Source: Oscillospiraceae bacterium
Lineage (GTDB): Bacteria > Bacillota_A > Clostridia > Oscillospirales > Oscillospiraceae
NCBI GenBank assembly: GCA_017505505.1
Contig: JAFVPA010000024.1
Coordinates: 1-29,268 of the forward strand
Length of the DNA stretch: 29,268 bases
Direction: 5' to 3'
Each line of letters opens with the position of its first letter. The first letter of the stretch is position 1. The translations under genes and the position numbers were made by a program. A model generated the notes under the pieces. The model had not been told where the DNA came from. It saw nothing but the letters and a program-made list of their open reading frames with translations, and searched no databases. Below, piece after piece: positions 11,765 to 22,236 of the stretch.

Positions 11765-11841
11765 TCCGGCCAGCGAAACAGAGCTGTTTCTTCCCATCCA
11801 GCGCAATGCAGCCCCCATCGGTCAACAGAAAAACCGTTGAT

Positions 11842-11922
11842 AATTGCTTCCAGCAAAAGAAAAAGTCCAAAACCCCTAGAGCCTCTAAGGATTTTGGACT
11901 TGGTGCCGGTGACCGGACTCGA
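11842..11922 (-). repeat. Left attachment-site copy (att, distal)
   Basis: Matches 22092-22172 over 81 bp with a single difference (C at 11882, A at 22132). It includes the tRNA-Leu terminator hairpin and the last 22 nt of the tRNA, then diverges in the T-arm. About 130 bp of unassigned DNA follow before the second tRNA fragment at 12056. Confidence 0.85.
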
Positions 11923-12017
11923 TTACATTATGGTGTCGATCCCGGCTGGGCGGAATCGAACGGATGTCCACCGGACATCCGCATTGAAACGGGTTCGAGT
12001 TCACTTCCCTTCATAAA

Positions 12018-12054
12018 CGAAGAATGGGCACCCCAATAGGGTGCCCATTCTTCG
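12018..12054 (-). terminator. Second tRNA-type terminator hairpin
   Basis: A perfect 16-bp stem (12018-12033 with 12039-12054) abutting the tRNA-Leu fragment at 12056, in the position a tRNA terminator would take. It differs in sequence from the terminator of the intact tRNA. Confidence 0.65.
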
Positions 12055-12055
12055 C

Positions 12056-12111
12056 TGGTGCCGGTGACCGGACTCGAACCGGTACGTCATCGCTGGCGGC
12101 GGATTTTGAGC
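12056..12111 (-). pseudogene. tRNA-Leu 3'-half fragment (second att remnant)
   Basis: 56 nt identical, but for one base (T for C in the variable arm), to the 3' end of the intact tRNA-Leu at 22151-22236, from CCA back to the anticodon loop. Similarity stops just past the anticodon, a common crossover point for tRNA-targeting tyrosine integrases. No 5' half is present. Together with the copy at 11842 it indicates two insertion events at the same tRNA. From 12112 to 12409 I see no gene, only AT-rich DNA with possible promoter boxes. Confidence 0.85.
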
Positions 12112-12655: not shown

Positions 12656-12665
12656 GGAGGTGCTA

Positions 12666-13028
12666 ATGATGGAACTGAACTATATTCGCTGCGGTGATTA
12701 TTATATTCCCGATCTGAAATTATCCGAGGAGAAACGTCCCATCGGAAAATGGGGACGGTTGCACCGGGATTACCTGAAAGAGCATCATCCTGTACAGTTC
12801 AATCTGCTGGCCCTGTCCGGGAATTTTCATACTTATCTTGCTGAGTTGAATGATCAGGCGCAAGATCGGTTGGAGAGGATTCTTGAACAAATGATAGCTG
12901 CCGAAGGCGTTACAGAAGAACTGAAAGCAGCAAACCCTATGCTTTGGGTACAGCGTATGAATAATATCCGGAACCGGGCAGAGGAGATGATTCTCCGGGA
13001 ACTGGTCTACGGGGAGGCGATGGCATGA
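12666..13028 (+). CDS. TnpV family transposon-associated protein
   Basis: A 120-aa soluble protein with the TnpV pattern: a short N-terminal strand region (GDYYIPDL), then PIGKWGRLHRDYLKEH, a helical core and the ending MNNIRNRAEEMILRELVY. TnpV proteins are carried by clostridial mobile elements; their biochemical role is not established. The start at ATG 12666 follows AGGGAGG closely; ATG 12669 is equally possible. It overlaps the next gene by an ATGA junction, so the two are translated together. Confidence 0.8.
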   Translation: MMELNYIRCGDYYIPDLKLSEEKRPIGKWGRLHRDYLKEHHPVQFNLLALSGNFHTYLAELNDQAQDRLERILEQMIAAEGVTEELKAANPMLWVQRMNNIRNRAEEMILRELVYGEAMA

Positions 13029-13312
13029 GTATTCTGGAAGAATTTTGGTATGGTAATCTTGACCCAGCAGAATATGATGCCAGTTCAAAAAATGAATACA
13101 AGGAACTGCTCCAGCTGATCAGCCGGAATGAAGAAAAGCTGCTTGCAACCATGACGGCTGAGCAGAAAGACCTGTTCTCCAGATATCAAGACTGTGTTCG
13201 TGAATTTCAAGCTATGGCGGAGTACTTGCTGTTTCAGAACAGTTTCCGGTTGGGAGCAAGGATGATGTTGGAGATCATGGAAGCCGATCCTATGAATCAC
13301 AGCTACAAATAA
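13025..13312 (+). CDS. DUF6809-type small helical protein
   Basis: A 95-aa, predicted all-helical protein (MSILEEFWYGNLDPAEY...) of the kind usually found downstream of TnpV. The N-terminal FWYGNLDP box and the C-terminal FQNSFRLGARMMLE helix are the recognisable parts. Function unknown. It overlaps the TnpV stop codon (ATGA) and ends just before a strong terminator, closing a three-gene operon. Confidence 0.75.
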   Translation: MSILEEFWYGNLDPAEYDASSKNEYKELLQLISRNEEKLLATMTAEQKDLFSRYQDCVREFQAMAEYLLFQNSFRLGARMMLEIMEADPMNHSYK

Positions 13313-13330
13313 CATCCGTTACATGCAAAA

Positions 13331-13372
13331 ACAAGATAGCAGCGGTATCAAAGCCGCTGCTATCTTGTTTTT
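13331..13372 (+). terminator. Strong terminator between convergent genes
   Basis: A perfect 15-bp stem (13331-13345 with 13354-13368) followed by TTTTT. It can serve both the plus-strand DUF6809 operon and the minus-strand permease operon. Confidence 0.9.
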
Positions 13373-13407
13373 GTGGAATAACGCGTTTAAGGAGGCTGTA
13401 TCTTACA

Positions 13408-14181
13408 TTACTTACTTAAAATCCAGGATACCACGCTGACCAGAATCAGCACGGTACCTGCAGTGAGGTTCAGCTTGCGCTCGCTGACCTTATTGGCAAA
13501 GCGGGCAGAACCGACTGCACCGATGGTGCACGTGACAGTGACCACGATACTGGGGATCAGATCAACAGCAGCACCCATGGCAACATGGCTGACTGCACCG
13601 GTCAGCGCAACCAGGGTCATGATCATACTGCTGGTGCCAACGGCCAGCTTGGTGTCCATACCCATGATCATGGTCAGAACCATCAGCATCAGTGCGCCGC
13701 CTGCAGATCCCATGAAGCCGCATTCGACACCGATGAGGAAGCCCAGAATCAGAGCAATCACGGTTTTCCGCTGTGCCTTCCGCTCCTCGGCGGCAGTAAG
13801 GTTCTCCTTCTTGGGTTTAGTGGGCATAAAGAACTTCACAGCCATAAACAGGTTGCTGATGATGACAAAATAGCTGATGCCGTTTTCGCTCACCATACTG
13901 AACAGATAGCCCAAGTAGCTGCCCACCACAGCACCGGCAAAAGCCACCACTGCCATGGGCATGCCCTTCTTCATCTGGATGTTGCCATTCTTGTAGAAGG
14001 TCCAGCAGGTGACCATGGCGGAGGGCACATTGGCGATCAGAGACAGGGTCACGGCATCATAGCCGCTCCAGCCGCAGACGCTGCACAGGATGGGAGTCAA
14101 AACCATAGCGGCAGTCAGACCAGCCATGCCCGTCAGGACACCACCGGCAAGGCCTGCCAGAATATACACAATGTAAAGCAT
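13408..14181 (-). CDS. TauE/SafE family permease
   Basis: A 257-aa membrane protein of about eight segments with the family's two-fold internal repeat: GLAGGVLTGMAGLTAAMV near the N-terminus and GFLIGVECGFMGSAGGALM at about residue 155. TauE/SafE proteins export small organic or sulfur anions such as sulfite and sulfoacetate; the substrate here is unknown. It is the last gene of an operon, 12 bp after the SGNH hydrolase, so it may export the product or a by-product of the acyltransferase/hydrolase pair. The ATG has AAGGAGAG upstream. Confidence 0.88.
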   Translation of the reverse strand: MLYIVYILAGLAGGVLTGMAGLTAAMVLTPILCSVCGWSGYDAVTLSLIANVPSAMVTCWTFYKNGNIQMKKGMPMAVVAFAGAVVGSYLGYLFSMVSENGISYFVIISNLFMAVKFFMPTKPKKENLTAAEERKAQRKTVIALILGFLIGVECGFMGSAGGALMLMVLTMIMGMDTKLAVGTSSMIMTLVALTGAVSHVAMGAAVDLIPSIVVTVTCTIGAVGSARFANKVSERKLNLTAGTVLILVSVVSWILSK

Positions 14182-14193
14182 CTTTTTCTCTCC

Positions 14194-14913
14194 TTATTTG
14201 CTGCGGATCACAGCGTAAACTTCCTGGGCAATAGCAGCTGCGCCCTCGTTGCTGGGATGAACACCGTCTTTTGCAAACCATTCGGGATGCTGGGAAGTCA
14301 GTGCATGGATGTCGATAAGGGTATAGCCACGCTCTGCGGCAACTCCCCGGGTGATTTCCGCGATCTCGTTCACTATCAGGGGCTGGATGTCATGGTTGGT
14401 GGTTCCTTCTGTCTGGCCTTCCAAGAAGAAAGCGGAAGGCAGGGTACACAGGATGATCTCACTGTCGCCGTAAGTATCCAGCAGGCTCAGCAGGTCTGTC
14501 TTAAAAGCATCCGCACCCTTCCAGTTCTCAGGCTTACTGTCATTGCTGCCCATCATGAACACAACATAGTCCGCCGCGTAATCCAGACTCTCCTGATAAT
14601 GAGGCAGGGTACGGTAGGAGCGGTCTGCGCTCTCCTGCACAGCAAAGCTGCTGACACCATAGTTGTTTACATGGTAGTTTTCGCCAAGCAGATTCTGCAG
14701 AACGGTGGGATAGTTATTCTTGGGCCAACCGGAAATACCGTGACCGTAGGTGGTGCTGTCACCGGCGCAGGCGATTTTGATCTGGCCTTCTTTGGGCTCG
14801 GAAGTATTGCTCATGCCGGACATACCGTTAAAGTACAGGTAAGCAAATCCACCGGCAACGATCAGAATGATGATCAGCAGAATGATCAGTAACACTTTCA
14901 ACACTTTTTTCAT
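14194..14913 (-). CDS. Membrane-anchored SGNH/GDSL hydrolase
   Basis: A 239-aa protein with an N-terminal signal anchor (about residues 4-29), probably facing outside the cell. The SGNH catalytic set is complete: Ser53 in GDSTTYG, Gly/Asn in MGSNDS (Asn124), and Asp216/His219 in KDGVHPS. Such enzymes are esterases, acyltransferases or deacylases of lipids and cell-wall sugars. It lies 18 bp after the HxxxD acyltransferase and 12 bp before the permease, which suggests that it edits or releases an acyl group on the same molecule. The family is too broad to fix the substrate. Confidence 0.9.
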   Translation of the reverse strand: MKKVLKVLLIILLIIILIVAGGFAYLYFNGMSGMSNTSEPKEGQIKIACAGDSTTYGHGISGWPKNNYPTVLQNLLGENYHVNNYGVSSFAVQESADRSYRTLPHYQESLDYAADYVVFMMGSNDSKPENWKGADAFKTDLLSLLDTYGDSEIILCTLPSAFFLEGQTEGTTNHDIQPLIVNEIAEITRGVAAERGYTLIDIHALTSQHPEWFAKDGVHPSNEGAAAIAQEVYAVIRSK

Positions 14914-14931
14914 CTCTCTATATTCCTTCTT

Positions 14932-16221
14932 TTATTCCGACGCGTAAGCGGTAATTTCGGCCACCATATCATCCAGGGTCTTCTGCAGGACGACAACATC
15001 CTCATCCGTACACTGAACGGCCACTGCCAGAACGCACTCACCGTCGAAGCTGATGATGGAGATCTGCATACCGGGCTTCTTCTTCAGAGGACCGCCAAAG
15101 ATACCGCCGTTGGGCACAATACCGCCCAGTGCGAAATCAACGCACTTCAGATTACCCAGATTGGTAACACCCACGGGGGCAGTACCATAGACCTTGCCCA
15201 TAATCTCCAGCAGCAGACCGATAGGAACCTTCCGGGCCAAGGCATGAACAATGGGCATGCCCTCCAGACCAGCCAGCGGATTTTCCTTGACCTTCGTGGT
15301 CTGTTCGGCAATCATGGCCAGCGTTTCAGAGAAGGATTGAGAAACTCCGTTTTCCAGAAGGGTCATAAAGGAGCCGGACATATTGCACAGGCCCTCACTC
15401 TCGCCATCGACACAGTGCCGCCGCAGATCCATGGTGGAGTTCATGCACATGGCAGCCGCGGGGTCAATACCCTCCATCTTTGCATAGGCGTGGTAGGTAG
15501 CAGCGATCATCATATCATTGACGGAAGCGCCAACGCCCTTTGCCTTTTTCCGGGCAGCGTTCATGACATCAGCGGGAATCTTCTTCAGCACCAGCCGGTT
15601 CCGTCCCGGTTTCTCATTGGGATAGGGATAGAAGGAGCGAACATCGGAAGAGGAGGGAGAAGACTTCTGCAGCTTCTTCATATCCTCCTTGCTGACTGTG
15701 TCATAGACCTTTTCCGGGGCACGGCTGCCGTTCTTAATCTCCAGCGCATCCGCATTACCGGTCTGAGCGATCATATTATAGGCTTCCATCAGCTTGGCAA
15801 GCAGATACTTGCCGTCGCCGCCGTCCACCACCAGATGGCTCATGCGGACAACCACGCAGCTCTTTTCCTTGCTCTGCACCAGGGTACAGTGGATCTGTAC
15901 CTTGTCCTCAGAGTAAACAGGCAGCAAAGACAGGGAGTTGGCAGTCACCACAGGATCACCGTCGGTTTCCACATGGAGAAAATAGTTGCTCTCATCCATG
16001 TTCTCGTTCAGCTTCCAGTGGGCACTGATGCCCTCGGTGAAGAAGGTGCCGTGGAGCACATCCACGCTTTCCACCACCGCCTTGATGGCCTTGCGGAGAA
16101 TGTCCACATCCACGATGCCGGGGTAATTCAGTACGAAGCGAACTGTATTGTCGTTAAATTCCCGGAGAATAAACTGACCGCGCTCACCGCCGCCTGCTTT
16201 GATGATCTTGGGTCTTGCCAT
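14932..16221 (-). CDS. Condensation-type (HxxxD) acyltransferase
   Basis: A 429-aa protein of the CoA-dependent acyltransferase superfamily (condensation domains, PapA, alcohol acetyltransferase). The catalytic HxxxDG motif is His129-LVV-Asp133-GG. A second lobe includes MNSTMDLRR and the NLGNLK segment, which corresponds to the conserved region near the solvent channel. It has no carrier-protein or adenylation domain, so it is a stand-alone transferase moving an acyl group from a CoA or carrier thioester to an alcohol or amine. First gene of a three-gene operon, with AAAGGAG before the ATG and a good promoter upstream. With the neighbouring SDR it could build an esterified lipid or small molecule; the product is unknown. 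Confidence 0.85.
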   Translation of the reverse strand: MARPKIIKAGGGERGQFILREFNDNTVRFVLNYPGIVDVDILRKAIKAVVESVDVLHGTFFTEGISAHWKLNENMDESNYFLHVETDGDPVVTANSLSLLPVYSEDKVQIHCTLVQSKEKSCVVVRMSHLVVDGGDGKYLLAKLMEAYNMIAQTGNADALEIKNGSRAPEKVYDTVSKEDMKKLQKSSPSSSDVRSFYPYPNEKPGRNRLVLKKIPADVMNAARKKAKGVGASVNDMMIAATYHAYAKMEGIDPAAAMCMNSTMDLRRHCVDGESEGLCNMSGSFMTLLENGVSQSFSETLAMIAEQTTKVKENPLAGLEGMPIVHALARKVPIGLLLEIMGKVYGTAPVGVTNLGNLKCVDFALGGIVPNGGIFGGPLKKKPGMQISIISFDGECVLAVAVQCTDEDVVVLQKTLDDMVAEITAYASE

Positions 16222-16276
16222 AATGATAAACTCCTTTCAATTCGGGGATATTGCTGCATTTTATGATGTCATTTTT

Positions 16277-16305
16277 ATTATAACTATACCATTTTGCACA
16301 ATCAA
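16277..16305 (-). promoter_or_regulatory. Promoter of the acyltransferase-SGNH-TauE operon
   Basis: Minus-strand TTGATT (16300-16305), 17-bp spacer, TATAAT (16277-16282). A possible TetR operator was not identified with confidence. Confidence 0.75.
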
Positions 16306-16328
16306 CAAACAATGCGGGTACAATGTGG

Positions 16329-16365
16329 AAACTCCGACAACCCGGAAAGATTGTCGGAGTTTTTC
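16329..16365. terminator. Hairpin upstream of the acyltransferase promoter
   Basis: A perfect 10-bp stem ACTCCGACAA/TTGTCGGAGT, followed by a T-run on the plus strand. It could block readthrough from the tetR side or from the plus strand. Confidence 0.55.
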
Positions 16366-16379
16366 TTATACGAGTTTTT

Positions 16380-16522
16380 AATAAAACAGCCAAAGCTGTT
16401 TTATTCGGCTGCTTCAAAAGCAGCCTGCGGCGCAGCCGAAATAACGAAGTCAATACGTTTTTTGCCGCCAAGGCGGCGTGCCATACCTATGGCACGATAA
16501 AATGGCAGCAGGCCATTTTATC
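16380..16522. repeat. Array of contiguous perfect hairpins
   Basis: Stems in order: 16380-16405 (11-bp arms), 16406-16438 (GGCTGCT/AGCAGCC plus CTGCG/CGCAG), 16464-16477 (GCCGCC/GGCGGC), 16478-16495 (GTGCCATA/TATGGCAC) and 16496-16522 (10-bp arms). The last three abut with no spacer. It fills the gap downstream of tetR and has no ORF. The last hairpin, on the minus strand, follows the tetR stop codon and may contribute to termination. Confidence 0.8.
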
Positions 16523-16534
16523 AAAAAATAAGTA

Positions 16535-17131
16535 TTATTCCCGCATCCAGTCAGTCTCCAGGAATGCTCTTGCTGACTGGCAAATGATATCTCCAATTTG
16601 CGAAGAAACCTGATCCAGCGTACAGTTCAGTGTTCCCTCTGCCCAGCGCTGATAGGTATTGATGATGCCTCCCAGGAAGAAATGGACCCGGATGCCAAAC
16701 AATACGGATTCCCGTACCGTTTCCGGAATATCGGAATTGTGCATGATGTCGTATTCCATCATTTCCTGAAGCCGTTCGCTTTTGCGCTGGATGTTTTCCG
16801 ATAAACCTAAACGCTGCATCAGTTCCAGATTTTGCTCCATGGTTGTGGCAATGCAGTGAAGATATGGCTTCGGGTCTTTCAGAATATTCCGGAACAGGAT
16901 CTGCTGAAACAGCTCCATATTGCGCTGAATGATCTCTTCCTGCATTTCATCCACGATTCCGTAGATGTCCGGATAGTGGGCATAGAAAGTAGAGCGGTTC
17001 AGGTCTGCCCGGGCAACAATATCGGTTACGGTAATTTTATGGAAGCCCTTCTCTTTCAGCAGTGCTTCAAAAGCCTCCCGGATCATCTGTCGGGAGCGGC
17101 GTGCATTTCGGTTTTCTTTTCGTTCTGTCAT
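16535..17131 (-). CDS. TetR family transcriptional regulator
   Basis: A 198-aa repressor-type regulator. The N-terminal helix-turn-helix is clear (MIREAFEALLKEKGF, then ITVTDIVARADLNRSTFYAHY at about residues 30-52), and the C-terminal ligand-binding and dimer domain is helical. It is placed downstream of the SDR gene with a terminator between, and upstream of the acyltransferase operon, so it is the likely controller of the cassette, perhaps sensing a lipid or acyl ligand. The ATG at 17131 has a weak AGAGGT site; a longer frame to 17161 has no better site. Confidence 0.9.
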   Translation of the reverse strand: MTERKENRNARRSRQMIREAFEALLKEKGFHKITVTDIVARADLNRSTFYAHYPDIYGIVDEMQEEIIQRNMELFQQILFRNILKDPKPYLHCIATTMEQNLELMQRLGLSENIQRKSERLQEMMEYDIMHNSDIPETVRESVLFGIRVHFFLGGIINTYQRWAEGTLNCTLDQVSSQIGDIICQSARAFLETDWMRE

Positions 17132-17152
17132 TGTGGTAAACCTCTGGGCCTG

Positions 17153-17180
17153 CAAAAGCACCGGCTTGATGGGCCGGTGC
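17153..17180 (-). terminator. Terminator after the SDR gene
   Basis: Minus-strand stem GCACCGGC/GCCGGTGC followed by TTTTGC, between the SDR gene and tetR. Some readthrough into tetR is likely because no separate tetR promoter is evident. Confidence 0.75.
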
Positions 17181-17202
17181 CTTCGCGGAAAGAAAAAGGT
17201 GA

Positions 17203-18543
17203 TTATTTTCTGCTCAGGCGTTCCTTGGCTTCCTCGGTGGTCTCACCCTCCCGGGCCAGGAATTTCTGAACGAACTTATCTTCGATCTTTTTATAGCCGG
17301 AAACAAAGGTGTTTTCCACTTTCTTGTAGCCGCCAACGACACCATCTTCGATCTTTTCGTAGGTCTCCACAACGGTTTCTTCGATGGCATTGTAGGCTTC
17401 CACAGGGTCGATCGCTTCCGTATAGCCGCCTTCGCTGACCTGACCGTCAGTCATCTCAGCATGTTTTTCGGTAACGCCGCTGCCATCGATCAGGCCCTCG
17501 GCGATCATCCACTGGACTTCATCATGGATGGTCTCCTGGTAGGAACGGGTGGTGTAGCCCAGCTCCTGCTCTGCCTTGGAATAGTCAAATTCGTTGTTTC
17601 TGGCCAGGTTGTAGACGGAGAAGGTGGTCATCAGGGGCATCTTTCCGGTCTTTTCTGCCTGTTTTTCCAGACCGGCGGCGATCTTGTCTGCCAGATCCAG
17701 GGGCAGGTAGAACTTGATCTGCTTGGCGTTGCACTCTTCGTGGAGCATATCGCACATATCCTTCAGCGTAACGGTCTTGTTGGCCAGAATGTAGCATTCA
17801 CCGATGCGGCCCTTGTCGATGGCGGCAATGGTACCGGCAGCCAGGTCACGGACATCGCAGAGGTTGAAGCTGCCCTGCATACCCATAGGCATCTCGCCCT
17901 TGATGATCTGCAGCAGGGTACCGGTGGTTTCACCGATGGCGTGGTCATTGGGGCCCAGGATACCGGAGGGATGGACAACGCAGGCCTTCAGACCCATGAC
18001 GGCAACCGCATCCAGTACCATCTGGGTGGCAGTAGCCTTGCTCTGGGAATAGGCACCCACCACCTTCTTGGGATCGCAGGGAGTGAACTTATTGACCTCC
18101 CGGATCTTCACGCCGTGGGGCTCCTCGGGGATGGCACCGGTGGAGGAAACATAGACCATCTTCTCACACTCAGGGTGGTTCAGAACCTTGGTGATGATGT
18201 TTCGGGTACCGCCCACGTTGACCGCCATCAGCTTTTCAGAGTAGTTGGGATTCACGGTGACCATGGAAGCGCAGTGGATGATCACAGAGGTACAGCCCTC
18301 GGGCACGGTGAAGAAGGGCTCCAGGGAGGCAGCGTCGGTCAGGTCTCCCAGAACGACCTCCACTTCCTTGGGGATGTACTTCACAGACTTATCATTGGGC
18401 AGCACCAGGGCCCGGACCTTGCAGCCCTGTTCCAGCAGCTGCATGCAGATATTGGTACCCAGAAAACCGGCAGCACCGGTCAGCAGATAATAGCGTTCGT
18501 TATTCATAAAAGCATGCGTTATTTGCATATTTTCGTTGATCAC
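17203..18543 (-). CDS. Extended SDR: NAD-dependent epimerase/reductase with repeat tail
   Basis: A 446-aa protein. Residues about 16-330 are an extended short-chain dehydrogenase/epimerase fold: nucleotide-binding TGAAGFLG (22-29), GDLTD (66-70), VYVSSTGA with Ser133/134, and catalytic Tyr165/Lys169 in YSQSK. The family includes dihydroflavonol-4-reductase-like aldehyde reductases and sugar epimerases; HPSGILGPND resembles the former. The last 90 residues are a charged tail with repeated units of the form Y-K-K-I/V-E-(D/N)-x-F/V-V-x-G, probably a helical or surface-binding tail. The GTG at 18543 was chosen because AGGAGG lies seven bases before it; TTG at 18546 is too close. It has its own promoter and is the presumed first step of the island's metabolic cassette. 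Confidence 0.87.
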   Translation of the reverse strand: MINENMQITHAFMNNERYYLLTGAAGFLGTNICMQLLEQGCKVRALVLPNDKSVKYIPKEVEVVLGDLTDAASLEPFFTVPEGCTSVIIHCASMVTVNPNYSEKLMAVNVGGTRNIITKVLNHPECEKMVYVSSTGAIPEEPHGVKIREVNKFTPCDPKKVVGAYSQSKATATQMVLDAVAVMGLKACVVHPSGILGPNDHAIGETTGTLLQIIKGEMPMGMQGSFNLCDVRDLAAGTIAAIDKGRIGECYILANKTVTLKDMCDMLHEECNAKQIKFYLPLDLADKIAAGLEKQAEKTGKMPLMTTFSVYNLARNNEFDYSKAEQELGYTTRSYQETIHDEVQWMIAEGLIDGSGVTEKHAEMTDGQVSEGGYTEAIDPVEAYNAIEETVVETYEKIEDGVVGGYKKVENTFVSGYKKIEDKFVQKFLAREGETTEEAKERLSRK

Positions 18544-18594
18544 CAAATTACCTCCTTAATTGTGACTCCCCGCTCACCCTAACGGTTATGTTTG

Positions 18595-19023: not shown

Positions 19024-19033
19024 CAAAAATGTA

Positions 19034-19071
19034 ACGACCTTACGGTGAAAAAATACCGTAAGGTCGTTTTT
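19034..19071 (+). terminator. Terminator between convergent XRE and RHH genes
   Basis: A perfect 13-bp stem (19034-19046 with 19055-19067) followed by TTTTTG. Confidence 0.9.
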
Positions 19072-19072
19072 G

Positions 19073-19264
19073 TTATTCATCATTATCCCGTTCGATCGTT
19101 TCCCGAACAGCGCGGTTTAGGAATGCTGAAATGGACTCCCCTCTTTTGTCGGCATGCTCCTGGATCTGTTCTTTCACACCCTTGGGGACCCGGAAAATTA
19201 CACGGTCCACCTTTTCCTGTTCATATTTTTTGATGGCCCGGTCCATCGCTTCAGATCGTGGCAT
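19073..19264 (-). CDS. Ribbon-helix-helix (Arc-type) small regulator
   Basis: A 63-aa protein (MPRSEAMDRAIKKYEQ...) with a beta strand VDRVIFRVPKG, then helices KEQIQEHADKRGE and SISAFLNRAVRETIERD, the ribbon-helix-helix layout of Arc and antitoxin-like repressors. AGGAGGAG lies before the ATG at 19264; a longer frame to 19345 would run through the operator region. Two palindromes of the form ATACGNCATCGTAT lie just upstream, so autoregulation is likely. No toxin partner is adjacent. Confidence 0.82.
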   Translation of the reverse strand: MPRSEAMDRAIKKYEQEKVDRVIFRVPKGVKEQIQEHADKRGESISAFLNRAVRETIERDNDE

Positions 19265-19281: not shown

Positions 19282-19309
19282 GCAAAATATACGTCATCGT
19301 ATATTTTGC
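19282..19309. promoter_or_regulatory. 12-bp-arm palindromic operator upstream of the RHH gene
   Basis: A perfect inverted repeat, GCAAAATATACG (19282-19293) and CGTATATTTTGC (19298-19309), around TCAT. It lies 17 bp before the RHH start codon and shares the ATACGNCATCGTAT core with a second site at 19349. Confidence 0.7.
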
Positions 19310-19345
19310 AATAAAATACCGATAAAAAGCTGTATGCTTTGCCAA

Positions 19346-19374
19346 TTGATATACGGCATCGTATATGCTATCAT
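19346..19374 (+). promoter_or_regulatory. Plus-strand promoter overlapping a second RHH-type operator
   Basis: TTGATA (19346-19351), 17-bp spacer and TATCAT (19369-19374). The palindrome ATATACG-GCAT-CGTATAT (19349-19366) fills the spacer, so a bound repressor would block this promoter. An outer inverted repeat AGCTGTATG/CATACAGCT (19329-19337, 19372-19380) encloses it. The promoter points at the XRE-DUF3883 gene start at 19465. Confidence 0.6.
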
Positions 19375-19464: not shown

Positions 19465-19641
19465 ATGCATATCATTCAAGTTGTTCGAAGTTATCTCGGC
19501 CTTAGCCAGCAGGAACTGGCTATTAAAGCAGGTATTACGCAAGCAGACCTCTGCGAAATGGAAATCAAAGAACCATACGGACGAATTGATAAGTATCAAA
19601 GACTGTCCAATTACCTGGGCATTCCGGTCCATGCTTGGTTG
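19465..19641 (+). pseudogene. XRE-DUF3883 gene, N-terminal part (cut by inversion)
   Basis: The first 59 codons of a gene split by the inverted segment. They encode a complete XRE helix-turn-helix (VVRSYLGLSQQELAIKAGI...KYQRLSNYLGIPVHAWL) with AGGAGG before the ATG. As the sequence stands the frame runs on through antisense integrase DNA for seven more codons and stops at 19665. Flipping 19642-21187 joins Leu59 in frame to VTDDCTQIPVSFF of the minus-strand part at 20510-21190, giving a 284-aa protein: XRE domain, DUF3883 domain, second XRE domain. Confidence 0.8.
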
Positions 19642-20067
19642 CCTGCGATTACGTTCCCAAGTTAAATACGTTTCTACCTGCGTGGTGGTCAAATCGGCAG
19701 TGCGGACAGGGGTAATCGTGTCGAAATAAAGGACGATATCCCTGACAATATAGGAGTAACTGGATATTGTTCCTGGCGCCTTAGAACCACGTTGGTGCTC
19801 CAACCATGCTTGTGCCGTGTCCTTAAACAGTTGTTCTCTAATATTCGGTTCAGAGTTTGATCCAGGTACTGCAAATTTGGTAAGTAATTCATGCATGATT
19901 TGCAGCGCAGCTCGCTCTTGCTTGTTTGACTTTCTTTTTGAACTTTTATCTACGGCTACTCCGGTTGCCTTGTCTTTTGTTTTTCTCTTCCCGTCCACAT
20001 AATAACTGATTCTGGCATAGTAATACCCATTTTTTGCATAGATATTACCGCGGGGGTTCTTTTCCAT
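19639..20067 (-). pseudogene. Tyrosine integrase, N-terminal part (cut by inversion)
   Basis: 143 codons encoding the arm-binding and core-binding domains of a Tn916/phage-type integrase: MEKNPRGNIYAKNGYYYARI at the start (AP2-like three-strand domain), then the SAM-like helical domain (TAQAWLEHQRG..., TISSYSYIVRDIVLYF). AAAGGATCACC precedes the ATG, which overlaps the excisionase gene by 23 bp. After codon 143 (CAA) the frame passes into antisense XRE sequence. The catalytic part lies on the other strand at 21188-22048. The joined protein would be 428 aa. Confidence 0.85.
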
Positions 20068-20239
20068 GTGGTGATCCTTTCTTTAGGTATGTTTGTAGTG
20101 CTGTTTGTGTGATGCGAATCTGTCCGCGCACCCAAATGGCGTCTAATTCACCTGACCTAACTATCTGATAGACTGTTTTTGTTGAAATATGTAGTAGATT
20201 TGCTATATCTCTAACTGAGTACACACATTGGTTGCTCAA
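20045..20239 (-). CDS. Excisionase-like helix-turn-helix protein
   Basis: A 64-aa protein with the MerR/excisionase helix-turn-helix: YSVRDIANLLHISTKTVYQIVRSGEL followed by the strand-rich VRGQIRITQTALQTYL. It would bend DNA at the attachment site and steer the integrase toward excision. The start is TTG at 20239 with GGGGCGG upstream; GTG six codons in is an alternative. It overlaps the integrase N-terminal fragment by 23 bp, a typical xis-int arrangement, and has a near-consensus promoter. It lies wholly inside the inverted segment, so it is intact. Confidence 0.8.
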   Translation of the reverse strand: MSNQCVYSVRDIANLLHISTKTVYQIVRSGELDAIWVRGQIRITQTALQTYLKKGSPHGKEPPR

Positions 20240-20264
20240 ATTGACCGCCCCTTTTCATAACTAT

Positions 20265-20293
20265 ATTTTACGAATAGTGGCGTATTTTGTCAA
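20265..20293 (-). promoter_or_regulatory. Promoter of xis-int
   Basis: Minus-strand TTGACA (20288-20293), 17-bp spacer, TAAAAT (20265-20270). The gap 20240-20509 is very AT-rich with many A-runs and repeated GTTATAAAAA-like motifs; it could bind integrase or excisionase, but no gene is seen. Confidence 0.75.
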
Positions 20294-20509
20294 ATTTTAT
20301 TTGTGAAAATGAACTTTTTGAAGATTTCTGGGATATGAAAATTAAACAAAAGCAAAAGTGACGAAAAAGTTCATACTTCTGGTAAAAAATATTGAAGAAT
20401 ATAACTTTTTAAAAATAGGATTATATTCTGAGTGAAATATTATAATATGGTTATAAAAAGCAGAAAAAAGTTATAAAAAAGTTTGTAGATTTGCATATGA
20501 GTGAATCAC

Positions 20510-21190
20510 TTACGTTATGTACTGTTGCAACAGTTGGTCAATACTTACTCCTAGAATGTTGGAAATCTTTTGGTATATGCCAACTGGACATCCCCGCTTA
20601 CCATTCTCATAACGCCAAAGATCCGGTGTTTTGATTCCGAGGCAATCTGCTAAATCGCCTTTACTCATGCCGCAAGCCTCTCTGTGGTAAGTGATTCCGG
20701 AGATTAGCGGGTCTTTGGGTTTCGTATTACACAAATAGGTGGCGGGGGAAATTTCACAGAGTTCCTTCAGATCCTGGAAATCGTAAATAACCAATTCCTG
20801 GTTGGCCTTCCCCCAATTGCTGAAACGATAGATTTGATATGTTTCACCTTTTGCTGTCAGTTTATTGGCAGCTTGATATTCCTGCTTGGTCAATGTGAAA
20901 TCAGGATTGTCCTCGGTGGTGGTTTTTACTTCGATAAAAATGGGTTTTCCTGTGTTACTGAATGAGAGAATATCGTATCCGGGACGATATCGAAGTTTGT
21001 AATAAGGGAGGATGAGATTTGCGAGATTGGGAAAGTACTTTTCTATCCGTTCTTTTTCCAATGCAAATGCGGTATCTTCTCCACCTCTACCAAGTTTCTG
21101 ATTCTGTCCTGAAATGCTTTCTTTGTAAATTGGAGATGGATGCATACTGAAAAAGGAAACGGGGATCTGAGTACAGTCATCGGTTACCAA
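20510..21190 (-). pseudogene. XRE-DUF3883 gene, C-terminal part (cut by inversion)
   Basis: 225 codons after the junction. Residues about 85-190 of the restored protein form a DUF3883 domain, a nuclease-like fold: LGRGGEDTAFALEKERI, PGYDILSF with Asp131, and FIEVKTTT with Glu145/Lys147, a PD-(D/E)XK-type pattern. Residues about 230-280 are a second XRE helix-turn-helix (CGMSKGDLADCLGIKTPDLWRYENGKRG...). The open frame continues upstream to 21511 only as antisense of the integrase, which explains the odd cysteine-rich N-terminus of the raw ORF. The protein may regulate the element or act as a restriction-like defence nuclease; neither is shown. Confidence 0.8.
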
Positions 21191-22048
21191 AACTATACTG
21201 GTGAATATAAGGTATCCTCTCAGTACATTGACGGATCTGGCATCGAAAACACAGTTCATCACCGATATACCGTATTGCGCAGTATCTTGCAGTATGCAAA
21301 GCGTGAAGGCATTGTTAACCGCAATGTAGCATCCAAACGAGACTGCCAGATTGATGTGCCCAGACCGCAACGGCAGGAATTTCCTGTATTGAACGCAAAC
21401 GAAGCAAAAAATCTGATTGATGCACTTGATACAGAACCACTTTGGTTCAAAACCGCTGTTATTCTCGGCCTGTTTCTGGGCCTTAGAAGATCCGAAATTA
21501 TAGGCCTTCATTTTTCTGATATAGACTGGGAAAGAAACACTTTGACTGTTAGGCGCACAGCCACTCAGCAGACAATCAACAAAAAGAATACCGTAATAGT
21601 TAAACCCTACACAAAAAATAAGAAGCCCAAAGTGTTTACATTATCCACTCAGCTTCATGAACTACTGTGGACACTGTACGAGGAACAACAAAACAATAAA
21701 ACACAGTTTGGAAAATCGTACGATACCACATGGAATAACCATTTGATTCGCTATGCAGACGGCAAACTCATATCTCCCAACACACTTACCCGCATCTTTG
21801 GAAGATTTATCGATAAACATGGTTACAAAGATATCCGATTCCATGATTTGCGGCATAGTTGTGCCAGTATTCTTTACGAAAATGGCACAGACCTGAAAAC
21901 TATCCAGGAAATCCTCGGCCATGCACAGCTTTCAACAACGGAGATGTATACACATAAAATTAGCGACAAAAAGGCTGCCGCCCTCGCCAAAATAAATGAT
22001 CAATTCCTGGCTCCGATACCAACGAAGATGGGGGAAGCAAAAAATTGA
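21188..22048 (+). pseudogene. Tyrosine integrase, catalytic part (cut by inversion)
   Basis: Encodes residues 143-428 of the restored integrase. All catalytic residues are present: Arg242 in GLRRSE, His361 and Arg364 in HDLRH, His387 in LGHAQ and nucleophile Tyr396 in TEMYTH. The raw ORF begins at an ATG at 21140, but those first 16 residues are antisense DUF3883 sequence. Without the N-terminal domains on the other strand it should not bind arm sites, so the island is probably immobile in this state. It lies 100 bp from the tRNA-Leu 3' end and points toward it. Confidence 0.87.
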
Positions 22049-22091
22049 TAGATTTTTTGATAGAATTCGATACAGCATGTAACGGACTGAC

Positions 22092-22172
22092 AATTGCTTC
22101 CAGCAAAAGAAAAAGTCCAAAACCCCTAGAGACTCTAAGGATTTTGGACTTGGTGCCGGTGACCGGACTCGA
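22092..22172 (-). repeat. Right attachment-site copy (att, tRNA-proximal)
   Basis: 81 bp matching 11842-11922 with one difference. It covers the tRNA terminator and the last 22 nt of tRNA-Leu. Confidence 0.85.
22109..22150 (-). terminator. Terminator of tRNA-Leu
   Basis: Minus-strand hairpin AGTCCAAAATCC/GGGGTTTTGGACT followed by TTTTTC, starting right after the encoded CCA. Confidence 0.9.
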
Positions 22173-22236
22173 ACCGGTACGCCATCGCTGGCGGCGGATT
22201 TTGAGCCCGCTACGTCTACCATTTCATCACACCGGC
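22151..22236 (-). tRNA. tRNA-Leu (anticodon CAA)
   Basis: An 86-nt gene with encoded CCA. The acceptor stem GCCGGTG/CACCGGC pairs fully. The anticodon stem GCGGG/TCCGC encloses the loop CTCAAAA, giving anticodon CAA, which reads UUG. A long variable arm typical of leucine tRNAs follows, then the T-arm CCGGTTCGAGTCCGG. It is the integration target of the island. Confidence 0.95.

Follow-up and report, generated by a model that had tools for sequence, protein, structure and literature searches.

A single inversion of ∼1.55 kb splits both a tyrosine integrase gene and an XRE–NOV_C(DUF3883)–XRE gene in the 29,268-nucleotide stretch of DNA analyzed here (the window). The original prediction had proposed this mirror-fashion split, and it is confirmed by two unsplit proteins, P0001 for the XRE–NOV_C–XRE protein (the partner of the integrase) and P0119 for the integrase, which are tiled exactly by the four halves (Table 1). 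P0001 (283 aa) is covered as 57 + 226 residues by positions 19465–19635 on the plus strand and 21190–20513 on the minus strand, with one difference in 283 residues. P0119 (429 aa) is covered as 144 + 285 residues by positions 20067–19636 on the minus strand and 21191–22045 on the plus strand, with two differences in 429. Neither tiling has any gap or overlap. The uninverted and inverted alleles differ at 3 of 712 residues (∼99.6% protein identity), and none of the four halves contains a stop or a frameshift.

The unsplit proteins came from protein searches with the two C-terminal halves. The NOV_C half gave 118 matches, with P0001 the best (99% over the entire query), and the catalytic half gave 666, with P0119 the best (429 aa, 100% over 94%). 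The full-length uninverted proteins that the original prediction had suggested looking for were thus found, at 429 rather than 428 residues for the integrase and 283 rather than 284 for the partner. Ordinary full-length partner proteins make up 84 of the 118 NOV_C matches, or 84 of 100 when distant proteins of other architecture are set aside. The integrase tallies rest on the best 120 of the 666 matches together with P0243–P0245, and 89 of these 123 proteins are ordinary full-length integrases. The other 34 partner matches comprise 18 distant proteins that share the NOV_C part (P0101–P0118) and 16 with a truncation, an internal deletion or a fusion. Most of the 34 remaining integrases are truncated.

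Two other explanations can be set against these data. The halves do lie in open frames with start codons, but relatives at 99% identity and below have one gene for each protein (about 284 and 429 aa), rather than the separately encoded halves that the original prediction had named as the case against a split. Because the relatives encode single unsplit proteins (P0001 and P0119), the idea that the halves are naturally separate genes in their present layout is ruled out, and the chance that it is correct is negligible. An artefact of assembly or amplification would suit the short homology at the junctions, but both junctions are clean and reciprocal, with zero bases lost, and the inverted arrangement is present in five contigs. 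At the left junction the XRE–NOV_C–XRE N-part reads onward as a 66-aa ORF ending at 19665, and the integrase N-part continues antisense through the XRE start to 19294, giving a 257-aa ORF that only the inversion can produce. This ORF is P0243 (100% over 100%), found in five contigs, the longest of 35,254 bp, which may share one sample. Because five contigs carry the inversion-specific ORF, even if perhaps from one sample, the assembly error that the original prediction had allowed for is unlikely, and we regard an artefact of either kind as very improbable.

Table 1. Coordinates of the junctions, split genes, neighboring genes and island ends in the window
Feature	Position	Strand	Details
Extra copy of tRNA 3′ end and terminator region	11838..11922		85 nt, 98%; copy of 22088–22172
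att repeat, far end of island	12056..12111		56 nt, 98% to 22151..22206
RHH (CopG-like) regulator	19073..19264	−	Divergent from XRE gene; PF01402 E 9e-07
XRE–NOV_C–XRE N-part	19465..19635	+	57 codons, first XRE HTH; 57/57 residues identical to P0001 1–57
Left inversion junction	19634..19637		Exchange within T-run
Integrase N-part	19636..20067	−	144 codons; 143/144 residues as P0119
Excisionase-like HTH protein (xis)	20045..20239	−	Intact; PF12728 E 4.9e-12; TIGR01764 40.8 bits, cut-off 28.8
Promoter-like site before xis and integrase N-part	20265..20293	−	11/12; consensus match only
XRE–NOV_C–XRE C-part	20510..21190	−	226 codons + stop, nuclease-like domain and second HTH; 225/226 residues as P0001
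Right inversion junction	21189..21192		Exchange within T-run
Integrase C-part	21191..22048	+	285 codons + stop; PF00589 E 1.8e-30; 284/285 residues as P0119
tRNA-Leu (caa)	22151..22236	−	Island insertion site
att repeat, integrase-side island end	22151..22206		tRNA 3′ part; 56 nt, 98%

The exchange points

The breaks fall between VHA and LVT in P0001 and between RRQP and NYT in P0119. Because both junctions lie within T-runs, three exchange positions are equivalent and the flipped segment therefore measures 1,553–1,557 bp. The original prediction had placed the flip at 19642–21187, with the exchange at a TTG/CAA triplet. That flip does keep the reading frames, but it yields an XRE protein with one codon too many (284) and an integrase with one too few (428). 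The TTG/CAA exchange point is ruled out because it fails to reproduce the natural 283- and 429-residue proteins.

The intact alleles are known from proteins alone, and the DNA letters of their exchange sites are those inferred from the window. On this basis the uninverted sites have 6 bp in common, TTTGGT, in inverted orientation, in place of the 3-bp end match given in the original prediction. The present junctions carry TTGGT and TTTTGGT: one T has switched sides and the exchange lay one base out of register. If these letters are right, the exchange would have been conservative, with zero bases lost. Runs of at least 6 near the chosen points, with one-base slips allowed, occurred in only ∼0.7% of 200,000 random point pairs, for which stretches of the window served as gene proxies, and the short homology therefore probably mattered for the exchange.

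No inverted-repeat pair of 14 nt or more with one arm at each junction occurs in the window, and the similarity between the two junctions as they now stand does not exceed that of random stretches (fraction 0.84). Inspection of the junctions by eye gave nothing convincing as a dyad or a serine-recombinase-like site. A 26-nt direct repeat (77%; 20215–20240 and 21167–21192) has one copy that ends at the right junction. Nothing at the left junction pairs with this repeat, which is perhaps due to chance.

The tRNA-Leu island and the broken proteins

The split genes form part of a module at the tRNA end of a ∼10-kb integrative island that lies inside the 3′ end of a tRNA-Leu gene. Islands that target tRNA genes share a general anatomy, and two of its traits are present: the integrase C-part ends at 22048 with the tRNA-Leu 3′ end at 22151, and the 3′ part of the tRNA is directly repeated at the far end of the island (Table 1). 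The region at 11838–12111 contains two partial tRNA-Leu 3′ ends in tandem with a hairpin beside each, one of them with the 85-nt copy of the integrase-side terminator region, and is a trace of more than one insertion at tRNA-Leu. The module itself comprises an RHH regulator, the XRE–NOV_C(DUF3883)–XRE gene, an excisionase-like gene and the tyrosine integrase. The RHH ORF as listed begins with TTG at 19345, and by reading, the ATG at 19264 is the likelier start. Between the RHH and XRE genes, ATATACGKCATCGTATAT is present in two copies (17/18; 19287–19304 and 19349–19366) that are likely to be operators, and a perfect 14-bp hairpin with a terminator score on both strands lies at 19033–19068, between an upstream XRE gene and the RHH gene. 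The cargo at 12660–18546 encodes TnpV and DUF6809 proteins, a TauE-type permease, a GDSL lipase, a TetR regulator, an NAD epimerase and a condensation-like protein that scores below the Pfam cut-off. No resistance gene was recognized among the proteins scanned.

In a structural model of P0119 (mean pLDDT 84.8), the cut falls after residue 144, in the loop between helices 128–141 and 162–182. Under what we take to be the usual integrase domain layout, the arm-binding part and most of the core-binding helices lie on one side of the cut, and the last core-binding helix and the catalytic domain lie on the other. The integrase C-part accordingly contains the last core-binding helix and the entire catalytic domain. 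In the model of P0001 (mean pLDDT 87.9), the cut falls inside helix 55–60, with which the first HTH ends. The promoter-like site that precedes xis and the integrase N-part is one of 16 such sites observed in the region, compared with 9.0 expected from shuffles; after the flip it points antisense, first at the XRE start and further on along the RHH gene.

A broken integrase gene is a trait of grounded elements, and the split integrase is the one site-specific recombinase recognized among the 16 window proteins scanned. Because its integrase is split, the island has probably lost excision by its own means and been grounded, as judged from sequence.

The partner protein has the architecture HTH, nuclease-like domain, HTH. 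A model from the P0001 family gave weak Foldseek matches to SPARDA nuclease chains and archaeal Hjc Holliday-junction resolvases, with E-values of 8.9e-4 to about 1e-2. Residues D130, E144 and K146 (P0001 numbering) are invariant in 24 relatives; PD-(D/E)XK is a nuclease signature. A resolvase-like protein linked to a tyrosine integrase is worth separate study.

The module in relatives

The intact module has the order XRE–NOV_C–XRE, xis, int, with all three genes reading toward the tRNA. Two fusion proteins, P0203 and P0099, have the partner gene reading into int on the same strand, and so show int downstream of the partner in relatives. The linkage of the two genes is also spoken for by 17 equal-sized contig pairs among the first 100 partner and 122 integrase matches, with 0–4 pairs in 12 shifted controls. 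The strand, tRNA and gene-order statements of the original prediction stand with these fusions, the 17 linked pairs and the tRNA-Leu(caa) gene.

Other relatives have lost the module in other ways. In P0203 (430 aa; four contigs, the longest of 47,249 bp), the first ∼98 XRE–NOV_C residues are fused in frame to integrase residues 65–394. P0099 and P0073 are also of the deletion type: in P0099 the NOV_C part is followed by integrase sequence read out of frame, and P0073 begins in the antisense RHH region, which is joined to the NOV_C part. The deletions that join partner and int lie at different points from the inversion junctions. Two partner proteins have internal deletions, of about 85 residues in P0086 and about 33 in P0087. 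P0086 and a truncated integrase, P0245, are both on 17,103-bp contigs, and together they are another decaying module.

Recurrence of the inversion was checked in proteins only, where truncated proteins with no tail cannot reveal it. Tails of at least 12 residues on non-ordinary proteins, with the distant P0101–P0118 left out, were compared with the window (n = 16). Four tails match it (P0073, P0099, P0203 and the window-identical P0243), and the other 12 have no match at E 0.01. Three relatives with long tails that do not match the window, P0100, P0120 and P0236, were compared for antisense overlap with family proteins; none was seen, their longest compatible runs being 4–8 codons, as in shuffles (4–8), while the positive control P0243 gave 56. 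Apart from P0243, no inverted junction was recognized in another relative among the best 120 of the 666 integrase matches and the proteins with tails. The module is thus lost by several routes, with the inversion seen in one lineage only among the matches listed.

Searches for the DNA of the intact alleles gave distant loci at most. In genome contigs, none of 49 candidate stretches for the NOV_C half carried it, and an alignment query found two distant loci, in a Dehalococcoidia MAG and an Opitutae MAG. Viral contigs likewise yielded no intact-allele DNA: one query gave four distant loci and another gave 146 distant integrase loci, of which 80 were kept, and there was no match to P0119 or to the left junction string. 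Plasmid records matched neither P0001 nor the DNA; P0119 matches at least 5,000 plasmid records, with the best among the matches listed below 60% identity. Among phages, 14 records match the DNA, all within the tRNA-Leu stretch; seven match P0001, in the second HTH only, and 885 match P0119, all below 60%.

Origin of the inversion and known systems

We consider it fairly probable that the two genes were inactivated, and the tRNA-Leu island grounded, by a recent inversion at short homology that happened only once. A ∼1,555-bp segment would have been turned when a site in the XRE–NOV_C–XRE gene and an inverted site in int underwent one conservative exchange. These sites would have had only TTTGGT in common, with a one-base slip in the T-run, and the process would be a single short-homology (illegitimate) recombination. 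The flip would leave the integrase with its arm-binding region and most core-binding helices severed from the catalytic domain, and the partner with its first HTH severed from the nuclease-like domain. The inversion looks recent because the halves are free of stops and frameshifts and the intact alleles are only 3 of 712 residues away, although near-identical intact and inverted alleles fit a recent event and a switch alike. A comparable loss has come about differently in relatives, as in the deletion-type fusions P0203, P0099 and P0073. In an excerpt of PMC3411829, spontaneous inversions at short inverted repeats are reported to be frequent in Salmonella cultures; five of seven tested inversions were verified, with 12–18 bp at the junction, and the 7- and 9-bp cases were not. 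Because the verified inversions in that excerpt had 12–18 bp, the 5–6 bp found here is short for this route. Two further points weigh against a one-off event at short homology: a recombinase would also leave a loss-free two-sided exchange, and both sites resemble the att core.

The main rival is that the integrase, before being cut, recombined a secondary att-like site in the partner gene with another, inverted one in its own gene, and so destroyed itself. We regard this as possible but doubtful. It too would have happened once, with practically no way back unless a related integrase acted in trans, and the conservative nature of the exchange is what an integrase would leave. The two exchange sites can be aligned to one and the same position in the att core at the tRNA 3′ end (TTGGTGCCGGTGAC...), and their orientation there is the one that produces inversion. 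Their joint att score is 16; of 278 other inverted 6-mer pairs between the genes, 3 score as high, as do 6.25% of 400 other 77-nt windows put in place of att. However, the likeness to att rests mainly on TTGGT and requires a gap, about 10% of random stretches are as good a match to att as either junction taken singly, and the junctions are no closer to each other than chance would make them. The one-base misregister is awkward for an integrase that checks homology, and the deletions between the two genes in relatives sit at other points. The profile of the integrase matches 15 solved sequences, including chains of 6en0, 6emy and 6emz (“Int protein”), which are not the best matches and which we take to be Tn1549 Int. 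For Tn1549 Int, an excerpt of PMC5871717 describes strand exchange with minimal homology and variable crossover length. There are precedents for inversion by an integrase as well: according to excerpts of PMC5495485 and PMC6379469, HK022 integrase inverts DNA between attP and a secondary site within the prophage, and an archaeal tRNA-Leu integrase (pTN3) inverts DNA between non-att sites. If the integrase was responsible, the island would have grounded itself via sites in its own gene.

The original prediction had also suggested a reversible lock on mobility. Such a lock would be a (semi-)programmed invertible segment that toggles excision and the regulator with a recombinase acting in trans. 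We think this improbable. Inverted and near-identical uninverted alleles both exist, the four halves are undamaged, and with the flip the promoter-like site that precedes xis comes to oppose the XRE start, all of which would suit a switch. The inverted repeat at the ends is nevertheless not beyond 5–6 bp, no separate invertase was found among the 16 window proteins scanned, the sole recognized site-specific recombinase is itself cut by the inversion, and no inverted junction was seen among the relatives listed save the window-identical P0243. Although both orientations exist as proteins (P0001/P0119 and P0243), they are 3 residues apart and may thus belong to different strains. A variant, in which the island's own module or a sister integrase flips the 1.55-kb segment between att-like sites buried in the two coding regions, deserves equally little credence. 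If the lock were true, the integrase and the HTH–nuclease–HTH partner would be intact in one orientation and disabled together in the opposite one, where the xis promoter runs against the partner start. The lack of junction inverted repeats of at least 14 nt, the lack of recurrence among the relatives listed and the cut recombinase all speak against reversibility. With near-identical uninverted alleles available, a one-off event and a switch can be told apart from public reads.

Under the preferred reading of a one-off event, the window would offer a clean and recent snapshot of a mobile island becoming fixed, with one exchange, two genes lost and zero deletion. No published account of the present inversion was found among the open-licence PMC papers listed. 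The kind of event is already known, namely the grounding of an island through rearranged recombination genes, and the present case is a new instance. It is like the grounded prophages and islands with a broken integrase that are described in an excerpt of PMC6379469, where an element becomes fixed through loss of its recombinase and DNA inversion is named as one route to grounding. Compared with the elements in that excerpt, the inversion here lies wholly within the recombination module and also splits a neighboring regulator-like gene.

The HK022 prophage inversion (Dorgai et al. 1993, as cited in excerpts of PMC6379469 and PMC5495485) is alike in taking place inside an integrated element, possibly at att-like sites. 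One of its ends is attP itself, whereas the present inversion has two internal ends and cuts the integrase gene. Invertons and other phase-variable segments, as presented in an excerpt of PMC11892184, also consist of a short segment in two orientations. Unlike the invertons of that excerpt, the segment has no substantial inverted repeats at its ends, the stretch in common being 5–6 bp, and no recurrence was seen among the relatives listed. The spontaneous short-homology inversions in the excerpt of PMC3411829 are similar in that exchange occurs between short inverted matches, but the verified cases have 12–18 bp and the present sites have 6 bp with a one-base slip. Finally, residues 212–411 of the integrase have a detectable sequence relationship to the Tn916/Tn1549-type tyrosine recombinases (PMC5871717, in excerpt); unlike the elements of that type, the present element occupies a tRNA-Leu 3′ end and has long att identity.
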